NCBI GenBank assembly: GCA_020248985.1
Contig: JADCGL010000003.1
Location: forward strand, 62,001 to 126,000
Origin: Telmatospirillum sp.
GTDB lineage: Bacteria; Pseudomonadota; Alphaproteobacteria; CACIAM-22H2
DNA: 64,000 bases
Reading direction: 5' to 3'
The position numbers and the translations under genes are program-made. This document shows positions 8,050 to 54,104 of the stretch, in pieces (positions within the stretch are counted from its first letter, which is position 1; each line of letters begins with the position of its first letter). The notes below the pieces were generated by a model. It was not told the DNA's origin, did not search any database, and saw only the letters and a list, made by a program, of their open reading frames with translations.

Positions 8050-10752
8050 CTAGATCGTGCGCGCGACTTCTTCGATTTCGAAGCACTCGATGAGGTCGCC
8101 CTCGCGGATGTCCTCGTAGTTTTCGAAGGCCATGCCGCACTCGTAGCCGTCCTGCACCTCGCGCACTTCGTCCTTGAAGCGGCGCAGCGTCTTGAGCGTG
8201 CCCTCGTGGATGACGGTCTGGTCGCGCAGCAGGCGTACTTTGGCGCCGCGCTTGACCATGCCTTCGACCACGCGGCAGCCCGCGACCTTGCCGACCTTCG
8301 TGATGTTGAAGATCTGGCGGATTTCGGCATTGCCGAGGAACTTCTCGCGCAAGGTCGGCGAGAGCATGCCCGAGAGGGCCGCTTTGATCTCGTCGATGAC
8401 CTGGTAGATGATCGAGTAGTAGCGGATCTCGATGCCGTCGCGCTTGGCCATCTCGCGTGCCTGCGGGTTGGCGCGCACGTTGAAGCCGACCACGAAGCCC
8501 TGGCTTGCCTTGGCGAGTGCGATGTCGCCTTCGGTGATGCCGCCGACCGCCCCGTGCAGCACGCGCACGGCCACTTCGTCGGTGCGCAGCTTCGTGAGCG
8601 ACGCCACGATGGCTTCGAGCGAGCCTTGCACGTCGGTCTTGACGACGACGGCAAGCTCCTTGGCTTCGCCTTCCTGGATCTTGGTGAACATCTGCTCGAG
8701 CGTGCCGCGCGCGCGCATGGCGGACGAAGCGTCGCGCGCCCGGCGCTGGCGGAACTCGGTCACTTCGCGCGCGCGCGCATCGGTTTCCACGACCTGGAAA
8801 TCGTCGCCCGCAAGCGGCGTGCCGTTGAGGCCGATGACTTCGACGGGCGTCGAGGGCCCGGCGGCGTCGATCTGCTTGCCGCGCTCGTCCACGAGGGCGC
8901 GCACGCGGCCCCATTCTTCGCCGGCCACGAAAATGTCGCCGACGCGCAGCGTGCCCTTCTGCACGAGCACGGTCGCGACCGGCCCGCGGCCGCGTTCGAG
9001 CTTGGCTTCGACGATCGCACCTTGCGCCGAACGGTTCGGGTTGGCGCGCAGTTCGAGGATTTCGGCCTGCAGCAGGATGGCTTCTTCGAGCTTGTCGAGA
9101 CCGGTGCGGGCCTTGGCCGACACGTCGATGCCGAGCACGTCGCCGCCGTAGCCTTCGATCGCGATGCCGTGCTGCAGCAGATCGGCGCGCACGCGGTTCG
9201 AATCCGCCCCCGGCTTGTCGACCTTGTTGATCGCGACGATGACCGGCACGTTGGCGGCCTTGGCGTGCGCGATGGCTTCGATCGTCTGCGGCTGGATGCC
9301 GTCGTCGGCGGCCACGACCAGCACCACGATGTCGGTCACTTTGGCGCCGCGCGCGCGCATCGCGGTGAAGGCTTCGTGGCCCGGCGTGTCGAGGAAGGCG
9401 ATCGCCTGTCCGTTCTTGAGCTGCACCTTGTAGGCGCCGATATGCTGCGTGATGCCGCCCGCTTCGTGCTTGGCGACGTCGGTTTCGCGCAACGCATCGA
9501 GCAGCGAGGTCTTGCCGTGGTCGACGTGGCCCATGATCGTGACGACGGGGGCGCGCGGCTCGAGCGCTTCGTCCTGGTCGCCCACGCCCTCGAGGCCGAT
9601 TTCGACGTCGGCTTCGGCCACGCGCTTCACCTTGTGGCCGAATTCGGCGACGATGAGTTCGGCCGTGTCGGCGTCGATCGTCTGGTTGACGGTCGCCATC
9701 ACGCCCATCTTCATCAGGCTCTTGATCACGTCGACGCCGCGCTCGGCCATGCGGTTGGCGAGCTCCTGCACGGTGATCGCCTCCGGCACCACCACGTCGC
9801 GCACGACTTTGGCCGACGGGCCCTGCTGGAACATGCGCGAGCGTTCCTTCTCGCGCGCGCGCTTCATCGCGGCGAGCGAGCGCACGCGGATCGTTTCTTC
9901 CGATTCGAGCGCCTGGGTCACCGACATCTTGTTCTGGCGGCGCTCCTTGAGATCGCGCCCGCCTTCGGGCGCGGCCTTGCCGGGACCCGGACGCATGCCG
10001 ACCCCGCCGCGGCCCGGCGCTTGGCCGGGGCGGAAGGCGCCGGGACGGCGCGGGCGTTCCTCGTCGTCGGCTGTGGCGGCAACGCCGGCACGCGCCAGCA
10101 TCGCGGCCGGAACCGCAACGGGTGCAGCAGGGGCCGCAGGCGCGGCCGGGCTTGCCGCCGCGCGCGCGGCTTCGGCGGCCTGGCGGCGCTTGCCTTCTTC
10201 TTCGTTGAGGCGAAGGGTTTCTTCTTCGGCCTTTTTCTTCTGCGCTTCGTCGATGCGCTGGGCTTCGACCGTGTCGGTCTTTTTCTGAACCGCGTCTTCC
10301 TGCTTGCGCTTGGCCTCTTCGACGGCCTTGCGCTTCATCTCTTCTTCGAAGATTTTCGCTTCTTCTTCCGAGCGGCGCTTGGCTTCGATGTCGGCGCGGA
10401 TCGCGCTCTGGATCGCGCGCTGGCGCGCGGTGCGCTCCTCTTCGGTGAGGGCGCGCAGCACCTGGGGCTTGGCCGCAGGCTTGGCGACCGCAGCGGCCTG
10501 GGCGCTCGACGGCGCTTCGGCGGCCGGAGCGGCGGCGGCACCGGCCGCGGGCGCGGCGCCGGGCGCGCGCTTCTTGCGCACTTCGACCTGCACCGTCTTG
10601 GAACGGCCGTGTGGGAAGCTTTGCCGGACCTGGCCCGCATCGCCGCCGGCACCGGAACCGGCGCGCAGCTCCAGCCGCCCGCCGGTTTTGCCGGCAAGGG
10701 CAAGCTTCTTCTTGGCGTCTTGGGCCGTATCGATGTCTTTGCTGTCCGTCAT
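8050..10752 (-). CDS. infB: Translation initiation factor IF-2
   Basis: GTPase that delivers initiator tRNA to the ribosome. The product is 900 residues. The N-terminal part has low complexity: a charged region rich in Lys/Glu/Arg (roughly 100-200) and Ala/Pro-rich linkers. An IF2-N segment follows, then the G domain with GHVDHGKT at 408-415, DTPGHEAF and NKVDKPGA, then domains II-IV. The ATG at 10752 gives [19 protein letters not shown], which matches alphaproteobacterial IF-2; further upstream codons are not family-like. It is the last conserved member of the rimP-nusA-ylxR-infB operon and is followed by a terminator. Confidence 0.97.
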
Positions 10753-10771: not shown

Positions 10772-11398
10772 TCATTCGTTGCGCGCACTCTGGCGATAGC
10801 TCGCCAGACGCGCCAGATCTTCCTGCACGCGCAGCGCGAGTGCGCCCGGTGCAATGGCCGCGTGCACGGCGTGCTCGCGGCCGAAGGCTTCGCCCATTTC
10901 GTTCGCCGTCAATCCCGTCGCCACCGGAATGTCGTGCCCGCCGAGCCGCGCGCGCTCGGCGAGCGAACCGTCGGCCGCAGCAACCAGCACCGCACAGCGG
11001 CCTTTTTCGATCTTCTCTTTGACCTTCGCGAAGCCCGACGCCGCCTGGCCCGCGCGCCGGCACAAGGCCAGGCTTTCGACCGCACGGCGCATCAGCAGGA
11101 AGCCGACGCGCTCGGCCAGATCCTCGCCGACCGTCACGCGCGCGCGCGCGGCTTTGGCGAACAGGCCCTTGGCGACGGCCGTATCGACCGCCGCGCGCGT
11201 GGCCGTGACCCAGATCCCGCGCCCCGGCAGCTTGCCCGCAATGTCGGGCACGATCGTGTTTTCGGGACCGACCACAAAACGCACGAAATCGGCGCGCGGA
11301 CCCGACTTGCCGCTGACGATGCAGCGGCGCAGCGGGCCTGCCGCATCGGCATCGATGTCGGACTCCGTTTCGGGGACGAGGGCGAGCGCTTCGGTCAC
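10772..11398 (-). CDS. ylxR: YlxR (DUF448) RNA-binding protein fused to an L7Ae-like domain
   Basis: Small putative RNA-binding protein of the nusA operon. The 208-residue protein has an N-terminal DUF448/YlxR part (about 22-95; [20 protein letters not shown] region and the [10 protein letters not shown] loop) and a C-terminal part (about 100-195) resembling ribosomal L7Ae/YlxQ, with [12 protein letters not shown]. In Firmicutes these are two genes; in alphaproteobacteria they are commonly one. It sits 18 bases after nusA and 19 bases before infB. The exact role is not established; ribosome or RNase P association has been proposed for the family. Confidence 0.9.
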
Positions 11399-11416: not shown

Positions 11417-12931
11417 TTACTTCTTCTCGGCCGCGAACCAGTGTTCGCGCGCCTTCATGATGATGGCGTTGGCGGTCTCTTCGTCGAGCGTGTCTTTGCC
11501 GACGATATCGAGGAGTTCGTCGCCGGCAAGGTCGCCCAGATCGTCGAGCGTCTTGACGCCCTTCTCGCCGAGCTTCACGAGCAGGCCCGGGCCGAAGCCG
11601 GTCGCTTCGGCAACCTCGTCGGTCACGCCCAGGCGCACGCGCTCGGCTTCGAAGCGCTCGTATTCCTTGGCGACGAAGGCTTCCGCGCGCGTCTTGAGCT
11701 CGCCCGCAACGCCCTCGTCGAAGCCTTCGATGTTGGCAAGATCGTCGAGATCGACGGCCGCCACTTCGTCGACCGTGGTGAACCCTTCGGTCACGAGCAG
11801 GCCCGCGATCACGTCGTCGACGTCGAGCGCGTCCACGAACACCTGCGAGCGTTCCTTGAATTCCTGCTGGCGACGTTCGGATTCTTCGGCTTCGGTGAGA
11901 ATGTCGATGGCCCAGCCGGTCAGCATGGAGGCGAGGCGCACATTCTGCCCGCGGCGGCCGATGGCGAGCGACAGCTGCTCGTCCGGCACCACCACTTCGA
12001 TGCGGCGCGCTTCTTCGTCGAGCACCACTTTGGTGACTTCCGCCGGAGCGAGCGCGTTCACGACGAACGTGGCGGGGTCGTTCGACCACGGAATGATGTC
12101 GATCTTTTCGCCCTGCTGCTCGGCCACGACGGCCTGCACGCGACTGCCGCGCATGCCGACGCAAGCGCCCACGGGATCGATCGAATGGTCGTGGCTGATG
12201 ACCGCGATCTTGCCGCGGGAGCCGGGATCGCGCGCCACGGCCTTGATCTCGATGATGCCGTCGTAGATTTCCGGCACTTCCTGCGCGAAGAGCTTGGCCG
12301 TGAATTGCGGATGCGTGCGCGACAGGAAAATCTGGGGCCCGCGCGCTTCGGCGCGCACGTCGTAGATATAGGCGCGCACGCGGTCCTGCACGCGGAAGCT
12401 TTCGCGCGGGATCGTCTCGTCGCGGCGCAGAATGGCTTCGGCGCGGCCGAGATCGACCGTGATGTTGCCGAACTCGACGCGCTTGACGAGGCCGTTGACG
12501 ATTTCGCCGATGCGGTCCTTGTACTCGTCGAACTGGCGGGTGCGCTCGGCTTCGCGCACGCGCTGGACGATGACCTGCTTGGCCGTCTGTGCTGCGATGC
12601 GGCCGAAATCGATCGGCGGCAGCGGATCGGTCAGGTAGTCGCCGACCTTGGCGTCGGGGTTCTTGCGCAGCGCGTCTTCGACCGACATTTCGGTCGCGTC
12701 GTTGGTGACGGGATCGGCCACCATGCGGTAGCGCAGCAGCTGCATTTCGCCGTTGTCGCGGTCGATATGCGCGCGGATGTCGTGCTCGAGGCCGTATTTG
12801 GCGCGGCCGGCCTTCTGGATGGCCTGCTCCATGGCTTCGAGAACCTGCTCGCGCTCGATGCCTTTTTCGCGCGCGACAGCGTCGGCAACCTGGAGCATTT
12901 CGATGCGATTGTAGGCGGTCGTGCGTTCCAT
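11417..12931 (-). CDS. nusA: Transcription termination/antitermination protein NusA
   Basis: RNA polymerase-binding elongation factor controlling pausing, termination and antitermination. The 504 residues read in order as the N-terminal polymerase-binding domain (about 1-130), S1, KH1 and KH2 ([33 protein letters not shown]), and two C-terminal helix-hairpin-helix acidic repeats (from about 370). The start ATG at 12931 gives [20 protein letters not shown], preceded by an AAGAAG ribosome site; a longer frame to 13006 lacks similarity. It lies 43 bases after rimP. Confidence 0.96.
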
Positions 12932-12974: not shown

Positions 12975-13499
12975 TCAGGCGCTCGCGGCTGCCGCTTCGG
13001 CGGCACGCGTCGCGGCGATCAGTTCGTCGGTCAGCAGCAATTTTGCGCGGGCGATTTCGGCAAGCGGCACTTCAGCCGCTCCTTCCTTCGTTTCGATGCG
13101 CACGCGGTCTTCGGCCACGCCCAAAAGCGTGCCCGAAAAGCGCTTGCGCCCGTCGAGCGGGTTTTTGGTCTCGATCTTGGCGGCGTGGCCGGCAAAGCGC
13201 GCATAGTCGGATGCGCGCACCAGCGGCCGGTCGATGCCGGGCGAGCTCACCTCGAGCACATAGGCCGATACGATCGGGTCTTCAACGTCGAGCTTGGCCG
13301 AAAGGGCGCGCGACAGCGCTTCGCAGTCTTCGATGCGCATCGCCTTGCGGTCTTTGCGCTCGGCCATGATCTGCAAGGTCGGCCGATCGCGGCCCGTGAC
13401 GACGGCGCGCACAAGCTCGTAGCCCAGACCGTCCACGGTCGGGCCCACCAGCTGTTCGAGATTGCGACTGCGCTGTTCCATTGCTACGCGGTGTTCCAT
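12975..13499 (-). CDS. rimP: Ribosome maturation factor RimP
   Basis: Cytoplasmic factor needed for maturation of the 30S subunit. The product is 174 residues, with the typical [14 protein letters not shown] opening, the [13 protein letters not shown] signature and an Ala-rich tail. The ATG at 13499 or the in-frame ATG at 13481 could start it. It is the first gene of the rimP-nusA-ylxR-infB operon. The leader of about 130 bases carries a promoter and a terminator-like hairpin, so expression is probably controlled by attenuation. Confidence 0.94.
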
Positions 13500-13555
13500 C
13501 GGTCTTTGCGCGGTTGGTTCCGACCGGCAAAAGCCGTTCGAAAAAGCCGGGCGCC

Positions 13556-13587
13556 AAACAAAAAAGTGCGCCGGTTTGGGCGCACTT
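13556..13587 (-). terminator. Terminator-like hairpin in the rimP leader (candidate attenuator)
   Basis: On the minus strand a perfect 9-bp stem AAGTGCGCC / GGCGCACTT with a 6-base loop is followed by a T-rich run (TTTTTTGTTT). It lies between the predicted rimP promoter and the rimP start, with no minus-strand gene upstream that it could terminate. Terminator-type leaders before rimP are known from enterobacteria; the role here is inferred. Confidence 0.65.
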
Positions 13588-13631
13588 GCTACCTATCGCC
13601 CGAGCCAAACGTCGGACGTTATGACGCGCGC

Positions 13632-13659
13632 AATATACGCTTTTTCGCGTTCGAATCAA
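13632..13659 (-). promoter_or_regulatory. Predicted sigma-70-type promoter for rimP operon
   Basis: Minus strand: -35 TTGATT (13654-13659), 16-base spacer, -10 TATATT (13632-13637). Both hexamers are close to consensus. Transcription would begin near 13625, giving a leader of about 125 bases before rimP that contains the terminator-like hairpin. Confidence 0.6.
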
Positions 13660-13696
13660 GTTTTCCCAAGCCCCCTCCAACCGGCTCGAAAACAAA

Positions 13697-13789: not shown

Positions 13790-15556
13790 ATGCCCGCAAA
13801 GTTGGGTGCGACCAGAATGGCGAGCATGATGCGTGCGGGACCCTTGGCAGCCGTGGGGCTCGCGGCAAGCGTTGTTGTCGGCTGCGCGCAGATGTCGCAA
13901 GACCGCGCCCTGCTGCCGACGGCACCCGACAGTATCGTCTATACGGCGTCCGGCAGTTATTTGGCAGCCCAGCATGCGCAGCGCACGCGCGACGTAGCCG
14001 CCGCCGCCGATTTCAGCATGCGCGGACTCGAGGCCGAGCCCAACAATATCGATTTTCTCGGCCGCGCCCATCCGGCGTTGGTCGAAGCGGGCCGCATCGA
14101 AGAAGCCGCGGCCGTCGCTGCCAAGCTCGTCGCCTACGATCCAAGTTATACGCCCGCGCATCTGACGCTTGCGGTCGTCGAAATGCGCGCCGACCAGCTC
14201 GAGGCGGCCCGCGCGCGCCTGGCACGCCTGCCGATCCAAGGCGTCAATCGCCTCGTGCATCCGCTGATGATCGCGTGGATCGACATGGCGCTGGGCCGGC
14301 CGGCATCGGCGCTCAATTCGCTGCGCCCGGTGCAGGAAGTGCAGGGCTTCCGCTCGATGCACGACTACCACGCCGGGCTCATCAACGAGCTCGCCGGCCG
14401 CTTCGACGATGCGGAAGCAAGCTATCGCCGCGCGGTCGAAGGCGATGCGGGCGCCCCGCCGCGCCTGATCGAAGCGTTCGGCGGTTTCCTCGAGCGGCGC
14501 GGCCGGCCGGCCGAGGCGCGTGCGCTTTACTTGCGCGTGCGCGGCACGCTCGGCGATTCGCCGATCATCCGCGCCGGCCTCGCGCGCACGGCCGGCGGCG
14601 GCGCACCGGGCCCCGCCCCCGCATTCGCCACGCCCAATGGCCTTGCAGGTGCCGGCGAAGCGCTTGCCAATCTCGCGGCCGCGTTCCGCCAGGACAATAC
14701 GGTGACGCTGGCGCTCGCCTTTGCGCGCCTCGGGCTCTATCTCAACCCCACCGATTCGGCGGCGCTTTCGAACGCCGGCGACATTCTCGACCAGCTCGAC
14801 CAGCGCGACAAAGCCGACGCGCTCTACATGCGCGTCGATCCGGCCTCGCCCTACGGCTTCGCCGCACGCCTGCGGGTCGCCGAAAACATGCACGAGACCG
14901 GCAACACCGATGCGGCCGTGCGCATGCTCGAACAGATCGCGGCCGAGCGGCCCGACCGCATCGAGCCGCTTGTCACCATGGGCAACGCGCTGCGCGAGAA
15001 AGAACGCTTCACCGAAGCCGCAGCGGCCTACGGGCGCGCGATCGCGCGCTTGGGCGTGCCCGAGCCGCGCCATTGGTCGCTGTTCTATGTGCGCGGCATC
15101 GCTTTCGAGCGCGCCAAGAACTGGCCGGCCGCCGAGCAGCATTTCAAGCGCGCGCTCGAACTGCAGCCCGACCAGCCGGACGTGCTGAACTATCTGGCCT
15201 ACACGTGGGTCGACAAAGGCCTCAACATCGTCGAGGCCGAGCGCATGCTCAAGCGCGCCGTCGAGCTGCGGCCCAATTCGGGCCATATCGTCGACTCGCT
15301 CGCCTGGGCCTATTTCCGGCTCGGGCGTTTCGAGGAGGCCGTGCCGCTGCTCGAGCGCGCCGTCGAGTTGCTGCCGCAGGACGCCGTCGTGCTCGACCAT
15401 CTCGGCGACGGGCTGTGGCGCGTGGGCCGCCAGCTCGAAGCGACGTTCCAATGGAAGCGCGCGCTCGACAACAATCCCGAGCCCGAACTCAAACTCGAAA
15501 TCGAAAAGAAACTGCGCGGCGGCCTGCCCCCGCTCGCCCCCGGCGCTACGCGCTGA
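13790..15556 (+). CDS. TPR-repeat lipoprotein
   Basis: A 588-residue protein with a lipoprotein signal (hydrophobic stretch then VVVGC, Cys32) followed by many tetratricopeptide repeats over almost its whole length; clear units include FKRALELQPDQPDVLNYLAY and LLERAVELLPQDAVVLDHLG. The expected place is the inner leaflet of the outer membrane or the periplasmic face of a membrane, as a scaffold for protein-protein contacts. Possible starts are the ATGs at 13790, 13817 and 13826; all keep the lipobox. The C-terminus overlaps the convergent EamA gene by 11 bases. The partner is unknown. Confidence 0.85.
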   Translation: MPAKLGATRMASMMRAGPLAAVGLAASVVVGCAQMSQDRALLPTAPDSIVYTASGSYLAAQHAQRTRDVAAAADFSMRGLEAEPNNIDFLGRAHPALVEAGRIEEAAAVAAKLVAYDPSYTPAHLTLAVVEMRADQLEAARARLARLPIQGVNRLVHPLMIAWIDMALGRPASALNSLRPVQEVQGFRSMHDYHAGLINELAGRFDDAEASYRRAVEGDAGAPPRLIEAFGGFLERRGRPAEARALYLRVRGTLGDSPIIRAGLARTAGGGAPGPAPAFATPNGLAGAGEALANLAAAFRQDNTVTLALAFARLGLYLNPTDSAALSNAGDILDQLDQRDKADALYMRVDPASPYGFAARLRVAENMHETGNTDAAVRMLEQIAAERPDRIEPLVTMGNALREKERFTEAAAAYGRAIARLGVPEPRHWSLFYVRGIAFERAKNWPAAEQHFKRALELQPDQPDVLNYLAYTWVDKGLNIVEAERMLKRAVELRPNSGHIVDSLAWAYFRLGRFEEAVPLLERAVELLPQDAVVLDHLGDGLWRVGRQLEATFQWKRALDNNPEPELKLEIEKKLRGGLPPLAPGATR

Positions 15557-18254: not shown

Positions 18255-19238
18255 TCAGTTCGTCGGCGCAGGTGCCGGCCCTGCGGGCGGGCCGCCCGGT
18301 GTGCCGCCCAAACCGCCGCCGCCTGGCGCGCCGCCCAGACCGCCGCCGCCGGCAGGACCGCCGCCGCCGGCAGGACCGCCGCCAGGTGCACCGCCCCCGG
18401 GAGCACCGCCAAAGCCGCCGCTGCCCGGCGGGCCGCCTAAGCCGCCGCCGCCAGGTGCACCACCAAGACCACCACCGCCCGGCGGACCGCCCAAGCCGCC
18501 GCCACCGGGTGCGCCGCCCAGACCACCGCCCGGCGCACCGAGTCCACCGCCAGGCGCGCCAAGTCCGCCACCGAGGCCGCCACCCGGGCCGCCCAAACCA
18601 CCACCCGGACCACCGATTCCACCGCCCGGGCCGCCTAAACCGCCGCCGGGACCGCCAAGTCCGCCGCCAGGGCCACCCAAGCCACCGCCCGGACCACCAA
18701 GGCCACCGCCTGGGCCGCCCAAACCGCCGCCGGGTCCACCCAAACCGCCCCCTGGGCCGCCCAAACCGCCGCCAGGTGCGCCTATTCCGCCGCCAGGGCC
18801 ACCGGGACCGCCGCCCGGGCCACCGGGCGCACCGCCGAGACCGGGCGGACCGCCGCCAAGACCGGGAGCGCCGCCAAGACCGGGGGCGCCGCCGCCGACG
18901 CCAGGCGGGCCACCACCCAAACCAGGCGGACCGCCGCCAATTCCAGGTGGACCGCCGCCGATTCCGGGCGGGCCACCACCCAAACCGGGCGGGCCGCCGC
19001 CAATGCCGGGAGGACCGCCGCCGGGCGGGCCGCCAAAACCGCCGGGTGCACCGCCGGGTCCCGGCGGGCGCGGGGGTGGGCCACCGGGGGGCGGTGCGCC
19101 GCCGGGCGGACCGCCACTCGGCGGGCCACCGCTCGGCGGCGGGGGCGGACCGCCCGAAGGCGGGGCTTGGGCATAAAGCGTGCCCGCAGCGATCAGAACC
19201 AGAGCCGTCGTCGCAGCCAGAAGTGCGCGCGTGCGCAT
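18255..19238 (-). CDS. Secreted Gly/Pro-rich repeat protein
   Basis: A 327-residue protein with a clean Sec signal peptide (MRTRALLAATTALVLIAAG, cleavage after AQA near 24). The rest is almost entirely Gly and Pro with Leu/Ile/Ala: an N-terminal GGPP region, a central run of LGGPGGG heptads, and a C-terminal GGGGLGGAPG part. No catalytic residues or Cys occur. The minus frame is preferred over the long open plus frame because it has the signal peptide and sits in line with the TolC-like lipoprotein gene. Such composition suggests a surface or matrix structural protein; I recognise no family. Confidence 0.7.
   Translation of the reverse strand: MRTRALLAATTALVLIAAGTLYAQAPPSGGPPPPPSGGPPSGGPPGGAPPPGGPPPRPPGPGGAPGGFGGPPGGGPPGIGGGPPGLGGGPPGIGGGPPGIGGGPPGLGGGPPGVGGGAPGLGGAPGLGGGPPGLGGAPGGPGGGPGGPGGGIGAPGGGLGGPGGGLGGPGGGLGGPGGGLGGPGGGLGGPGGGLGGPGGGLGGPGGGIGGPGGGLGGPGGGLGGGLGAPGGGLGAPGGGLGGAPGGGGLGGPPGGGGLGGAPGGGGLGGPPGSGGFGGAPGGGAPGGGPAGGGGPAGGGGLGGAPGGGGLGGTPGGPPAGPAPAPTN
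18580..18790 (-). repeat. Tandem 21-bp coding repeat (LGGPGGG units)
   Basis: About ten imperfect 21-base units encode LGGPGGG heptads in the Gly-rich protein. Silent changes differ between units while the amino acids stay the same, so the repeat is kept at protein level rather than being a fresh expansion. Both strands are open in phase here, which produces a false Pro-rich frame on the plus strand. Confidence 0.8.
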
Positions 19239-19325
19239 GGCGAATCCCCCCAACGCGGGTCGATGCAAAATGCAAAGCTTCGTAAAATGTAATCCCGGTC
19301 TGAAATATTGTCTCGGGATAAATGC

Positions 19326-54022: not shown

Positions 54023-54043
54023 CGTTTATAGGCCTGAAAAAGA

Positions 54044-54073
54044 AAAAGGGGGATGGCGAACCATCCCCCTTTC
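54044..54073 (-). terminator. Intrinsic terminator after the large porin gene
   Basis: Minus strand: 12-bp stem AAAGGGGGATGG / CCATCCCCCTTT with a TTCG loop, followed by TTCTTTTTC. About 32 bases after the porin stop. A strong Rho-independent terminator. Confidence 0.8.
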
Positions 54074-54104
54074 CGTATCTCCCAAGCGGGGAGAGACGAT
54101 TTGC

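Follow-up and report, generated by a model that had tools for sequence, protein, structure and literature searches.

A terminator-type hairpin in the leader of the rimP-nusA-infB operon is conserved across Alphaproteobacteria and often kept before nusA in genomes without detectable rimP

We analysed a stretch of 64,000 nucleotides from Telmatospirillum sp. (hereafter, the window), in which a short segment precedes the genes rimP, nusA, ylxR, and infB, in this order on the minus strand. The features of the leader and the operon are, in window coordinates:

13654..13659, minus strand: -35 element TTGATT; TTG[ACG]NN, at 16-18 nt from the -10 element, is found in 22/23 family genomes
13632..13637, minus strand: -10 element TATATT, with a 16-nt spacer to the -35 element
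13598..13617, minus strand: small upstream hairpin P1, with arms 13617-13612 and 13603-13598
13564..13587, minus strand: terminator hairpin AAGTGCGCC-CAAACC-GGCGCACTT, whose 9 pairs are all retained within the genus
13560..13565, minus strand: T6 run of the terminator, identical in each of the 23 family sequences
12975..13499, minus strand: rimP (PF02576, 3.9e-21; PF17384, 8.2e-16), starting at ATG 13499 (or 13481)
11417..12928, minus strand: nusA (PF08529, 8.2e-39; KH and S1 domains)
10772..11398, minus strand: ylxR (DUF448; PF04296, 5e-20)
8050..10752, minus strand: infB (IF-2; PF11987, PF04760, and others)
13790..15556, plus strand: TPR-repeat protein, the divergent neighbour upstream of the leader

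The terminator stem is a perfect 9 bp (13587-13579 with 13572-13564) closed by the loop CAAACC. A preliminary description of this segment had reported a promoter (TTGATT-16-TATATT), a 9-bp stem, and a T-run before rimP, and all of them lie where it placed them on the minus strand. It had also remarked that no co-directional upstream gene needs a terminator, which holds, since the TPR neighbour (13790, plus strand) is divergent. Transcription would start near 13625 and the leader RNA would end at the T6 run, giving a length of about 66 nt. The end of the T-run lies 60 nt from ATG 13499, inside the published range of the rimP-leader (4-130 nt). The gene has a second in-frame ATG at 13481. The alignments of most homologues begin only at residue 4-11. 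In one relative (L004) the sole nearby rimP ATG matches the second one; translation may thus start at 13481. We found no tRNA genes in the window, and so no metY, and Rfam at its gathering score gave no matches there (no riboswitch, T-box, or other described leader family); permissive thresholds yielded no family either. Inspection by eye revealed no leader-peptide frame with an ATG or GTG start and a stop within 13625-13560.

Scanning the sequence by itself gives a signal that is modestly above chance: within 2 kb there is one promoter where 0.4 are expected and four terminator-like sites where 2.4 are expected, and the folding of the whole leader has a z of -1.6. It is conservation that excludes chance. 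A hairpin of the motif type followed by a T-run was found upstream of rimP in 113 of 153 loci across the class; the reverse strand gave 2/153 and shuffled sequence 0.2.

We searched for RimP among close relatives and found it in 11/11 genomes of the genus and 23/23 of the order, all 23 of which belong to one family. In every one of these 23 genomes a promoter and then a hairpin with a T-run stand upstream of rimP. The strict promoter pattern fits 22 of the 23 (the other, L023, has a 15-nt spacer, as judged by eye), and in these 22 the -10 element is 44-54 nt from the stem. In L004 the rimP ATG lies only 10 nt past the T-run; this leaves no room for a promoter between the two, and the hairpin must therefore lie inside the transcript. 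In the genus alignment (10 distinct sequences) the terminator is paired in 100% of cells, and one pair is changed on both sides (7 distinct rows have C-G there and 3 have G-C). The P1 hairpin is paired in 95% of cells; here too a single pair has changed in both partners, and the hairpin is weaker outside the genus. Of the 23 aligned family sequences, 16 have G-C and 7 have C-G at pair 70-84. The stem of the window and six genus mates reads GTGCGCC/GGCGCAC and that of the four other genus mates GTGGGCC/GGCCCAC. In the NusA tree, the seven C-G sequences (L001-L007, including the window) make up one side of a branch, and four with GCTGGCC/GGCCGGC stems (L012-L015) form another group. The stem has been rewritten by paired changes twice, separately, within the family.

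The spread of the hairpin was studied in a larger sample of the class, in which RimP was matched in 171 of 192 alphaproteobacterial genomes. We took the region upstream of rimP from every second of about 150 genomes listed among these 171, which gave 74 class regions, one partial row (G094) being left out. The hairpin-plus-T scan passes in 48/74; the reverse strand gives 2/74 and dinucleotide shuffles 0.3. We trained a covariance model, R1, on 43 of the 74 regions, chosen by their fit to a letter pattern, with the window's family excluded; L055 and L078 (near-copies that fit the pattern) and L077 (doubtful) were omitted. The training stems contain 28 cells with changes on both sides, against 4.8 in shuffles. 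R1 matches 55 of the 74 regions at E<=0.01, a count that is not independent because 43 of them are training members; of the 31 regions outside training, 17 are matched at E<=0.1, 12 of them at E<=0.01.

Applied to the 64-kb window, R1 has its best match in the leader (13599-13552, 26.9 bits, E 3.3e-4). The second best, at 54034-54083 on the minus strand (15.7 bits), is a GGGGGAT...ATCCCCC hairpin with a T-run, probably an ordinary terminator. The model matches 23/23 family loci (worst E 0.016), and in the window's own 4.3-Mb genome the leader is its sole match at E<=0.1 (150 of 1,954 candidates scored). R1 is not perfectly specific: elsewhere in the family a genome can contain as many as 11 matches at E<=0.1, and several genomes have their best match elsewhere than in the rimP leader. 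We then have the named relatives, the 80 loci closest to the window's NusA among 586, which lean to Rhodospirillales and Acetobacterales; one of them (L119) was reassigned to the rimP-less group described below, leaving 79. R1 matched 71 of these 79 held-out loci, 68 at E<=0.1 and three weakly (E 0.16, 0.16, and 0.92). All but one of the 71 matches (70) lie just upstream of rimP, ending at most 102 nt from its start. Many hairpins also score on the opposite strand because the stems are palindromic, and most such matches were left out of the counts for the 79 loci and the 74 regions.

The commonest stem in the class, GTGGGCC...GGCCCAC-TTTTTT-rTT, is the published rimP-leader signature, and Acetobacteraceae carry GGGTGGCC...GGGCCGCC. 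In about 10 of the 153 class leaders (clear cases chosen from 18 listed), a GGGTGGGCC-type hairpin stands upstream of rimP with no run of four T after it (L024, L040, L063, L109, L112, L121, L136, L143, L175, and L177). Termination is thus not the whole story everywhere, and in these leaders the hairpin may do something else.

A further comparison concerns genomes that have nusA and no detectable rimP. Our first set came from 21 sampled genomes lacking a RimP match, of which 20 were searched for NusA and 15 were positive; adding L119, a named Rhodospirillaceae bacterium, made 16 nusA loci. RimP_N at E<=0.1 was found in 0/16 of these genomes, against 10/14 control genomes. R1 matches 8 of the 16 loci. 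In a second, larger draw, RimP_N was absent from 31 of 389 alphaproteobacterial genomes, and we used the 16 of these 31 that had not been used before (11 deduced from gaps in the numbering). NusA was found in 14 of the 16, and R1 matches 9 of the 14 nusA loci. Pooling both sets, the hairpin is kept in 17 of 30 rimP-less genomes with nusA, in every case within 0-90 nt upstream of nusA (measured by hand). Some of these matches are weak (worst E 0.68), several of the genomes share the families f84, f58, and f145, so that the 17 matches amount to about 10 family-level cases, and 13 of the 30 loci have no R1 match. There is no further R1 match at E<=1 in the 134 kb around the rimP-less nusA loci.

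Two consequences follow from this retention, which is the new result of the present analysis. First, RimP is dispensable as a sensor or target of the leader, since the hairpin stays at nusA when rimP is gone. Second, the hairpin is not the 3' terminator of one particular gene, since the genes upstream of it vary (trmB or metK, identified by eye from translations, or others). The likely target suggested by these comparisons is nusA, or its operon. The retention itself is compatible with any signal acting on the operon and leaves NusA unproven as the sensor. It provides a natural experiment that separates the two proposed sensors. The genomes without RimP_N (31/389) are mostly of 0.8-2 Mb among those listed, and represent repeated losses of RimP, a ribosome-maturation factor, in alphaproteobacterial genomes.

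The leader is a variant of a published attenuator, for which feedback by NusA has already been proposed. Naville and Gautheret (2010; PMC2965389) called the rimP-leader the most ubiquitous transcription attenuator; the passages devoted to it describe a GGGc(...)gCCC stem and no antiterminator, consider NusA the best candidate regulator, and mention RimP as a possible regulator of itself. The likeness to the window is close: both have a terminator hairpin and a U-stretch in the 5' UTR of rimP-nusA-infB, with no larger conserved element and no visible antiterminator according to these passages, and the published stem GTGGGCC/GGCCCAC is carried by four of the window's genus mates and by relatives across the class. 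The window's clade differs in lacking the GGGc(...)gCCC signature described there: one G-C pair was swapped to C-G, by which GGG/CCC was lost while the stem was kept. The word Alphaproteobacteria does not occur in the main text of that article, nor do rimP or nusA in those of PMC3616915 and PMC4287350, and we found no study or experiment on the alphaproteobacterial leader in the open-licence literature, which does not prove that none exists. Rfam has a family for the rimP leader, RF01770, with an equal operon position by name and description. Searched up to E=10, it matches nothing in the window, and it matches none of the rimP leaders of the 23 family genomes, in one of which it gives a weak match away from the rimP leader; this model fits another lineage. 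Another family, RF02056 (STnc390), seemed a candidate in one relative, but below the cut-off it matches 16/23 family and 11/14 control genomes, and its matches in the window's own genome fall outside the leader; it was therefore rejected.

Control of NusA through the leader of its operon is known from other Bacteria. A review (PMC12288461) reports that in B. subtilis NusA stimulates termination in its own 5' leader and so autoregulates, and the E. coli metY-nusA-infB operon is described in PMC6511841 as having terminators, RNase III sites, and control by NusA of its own operon. The E. coli operon includes metY, whereas the window has no gene for this tRNA. In those two species the control was shown by experiment, whereas here it is approached through anatomy and comparison.

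We thus propose the following explanation, which as a whole we consider probable. Transcripts of the rimP-nusA-ylxR-infB operon would begin with this segment as their 5' leader. The polymerase would start near 13625 and make the small hairpin, then the 9-bp GC-rich one followed by U6. In a fraction of rounds it would terminate at U6 and release an RNA of about 66 nt; in the others it would read through into rimP, nusA, ylxR, and infB. Termination most likely becomes more frequent as more NusA occupies the polymerase, and NusA would in this way limit its own operon with no need for a competing antiterminator. Against this explanation stand the leaders that lack a T-run, the 13 of 30 rimP-less nusA loci with no R1 match, and the absence from the window's clade of the class-wide GGG/CCC signature, which hinted at recognition by a protein. 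The attenuator-like leader put forward in the preliminary description is backed by position, promoter, conservation, and paired changes. Its suggestion of feedback by NusA stands in part: retention at nusA in 17 of the 30 rimP-less genomes excludes RimP as an obligatory sensor and fits NusA or its operon as the target. Its interpretation as a whole is partly supported, and the observation from which it started is confirmed. The short stable RNA that it envisaged, of about 66 nt, is plausible. NusA is a central transcription factor, and among the papers cited here control of its level is described for E. coli and B. subtilis alone.

A more specific version is tentative, and we would sooner doubt it than adopt it. 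The hairpin could be a portable sensor of NusA that belongs to nusA and not to rimP, read by the shape and position of its stem and not by the letters GGG/CCC; in lineages lacking the T-run it would act as a NusA-dependent pause and not as a terminator. Recognition by shape over letters is suggested because two clades of the family rewrote the stem by paired changes. These swapped stems are ready-made double mutants with which to ask whether the regulator reads letters or shape.

The same parts could make an unregulated partial terminator, which would either fix operon transcription at a low level or serve mainly to produce a small RNA. The leader contains no antiterminator or sensor domain that we could find, and the list of ProQ-bound small RNAs in PMC5391140 includes the rimP leader. 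However, such an element would hardly be conserved so widely before one operon that encodes a termination factor, and feedback is reported for E. coli and B. subtilis in the sources given above (PMC6511841, PMC12288461), so we regard this explanation as unlikely. It is somewhat less probable still that the hairpin, instead of terminating transcription, chiefly serves mRNA processing or stability, for example as a 5' barrier or an RNase III site. In E. coli the corresponding region of the leader contains RNase III sites, as described in PMC6511841, the T-run is missing in some relatives, and the window's read-through RNA can form a longer hairpin in which CGGGCG/CGCCCG (13597-13602 with 13548-13553) encloses both terminator and U-tract. 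We rejected this outer stem because it is unconserved even in the genus, with 70% of cells paired and no paired change. The invariance of the T6 in the family also speaks against a processing element.

Attenuation with two alternative states, with P1 acting as an antiterminator by pairing with the terminator, is very improbable. The preliminary description had called for folding the leader in search of such an antiterminator, and none is supported. In the window, GUUUGG in the P1 loop could form a kissing contact with CCAAAC in the terminator loop, but we saw no paired change for it among 11 genus sequences, whose differences break it or open gaps in it, and we rejected it. GGGCG can also pair with CGCCC before the 3' arm emerges; this 5-bp alternative would be transient, since it loses once the arm is out and the terminator hairpin, once formed, is alone worth -15.0 kcal/mol. 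We give hardly any credit to the idea, raised in PMC2965389 as a possibility, that RimP regulates its own production by binding the leader: rimP is indeed the first gene of the operon in the window, but the hairpin lies beside nusA in 17/30 genomes with no RimP_N match. That the hairpin ends an upstream gene deserves as little, for although trmB or metK (named by eye) is directly upstream in some relatives, the window's neighbour is divergent, a promoter intervenes in 22/23 family genomes, and the hairpin stays while the upstream gene varies. Elsewhere in the window, an open reading frame on the minus strand (18255-19268) encodes a protein of 337 residues made up largely of PGGG/GGPPG repeats.
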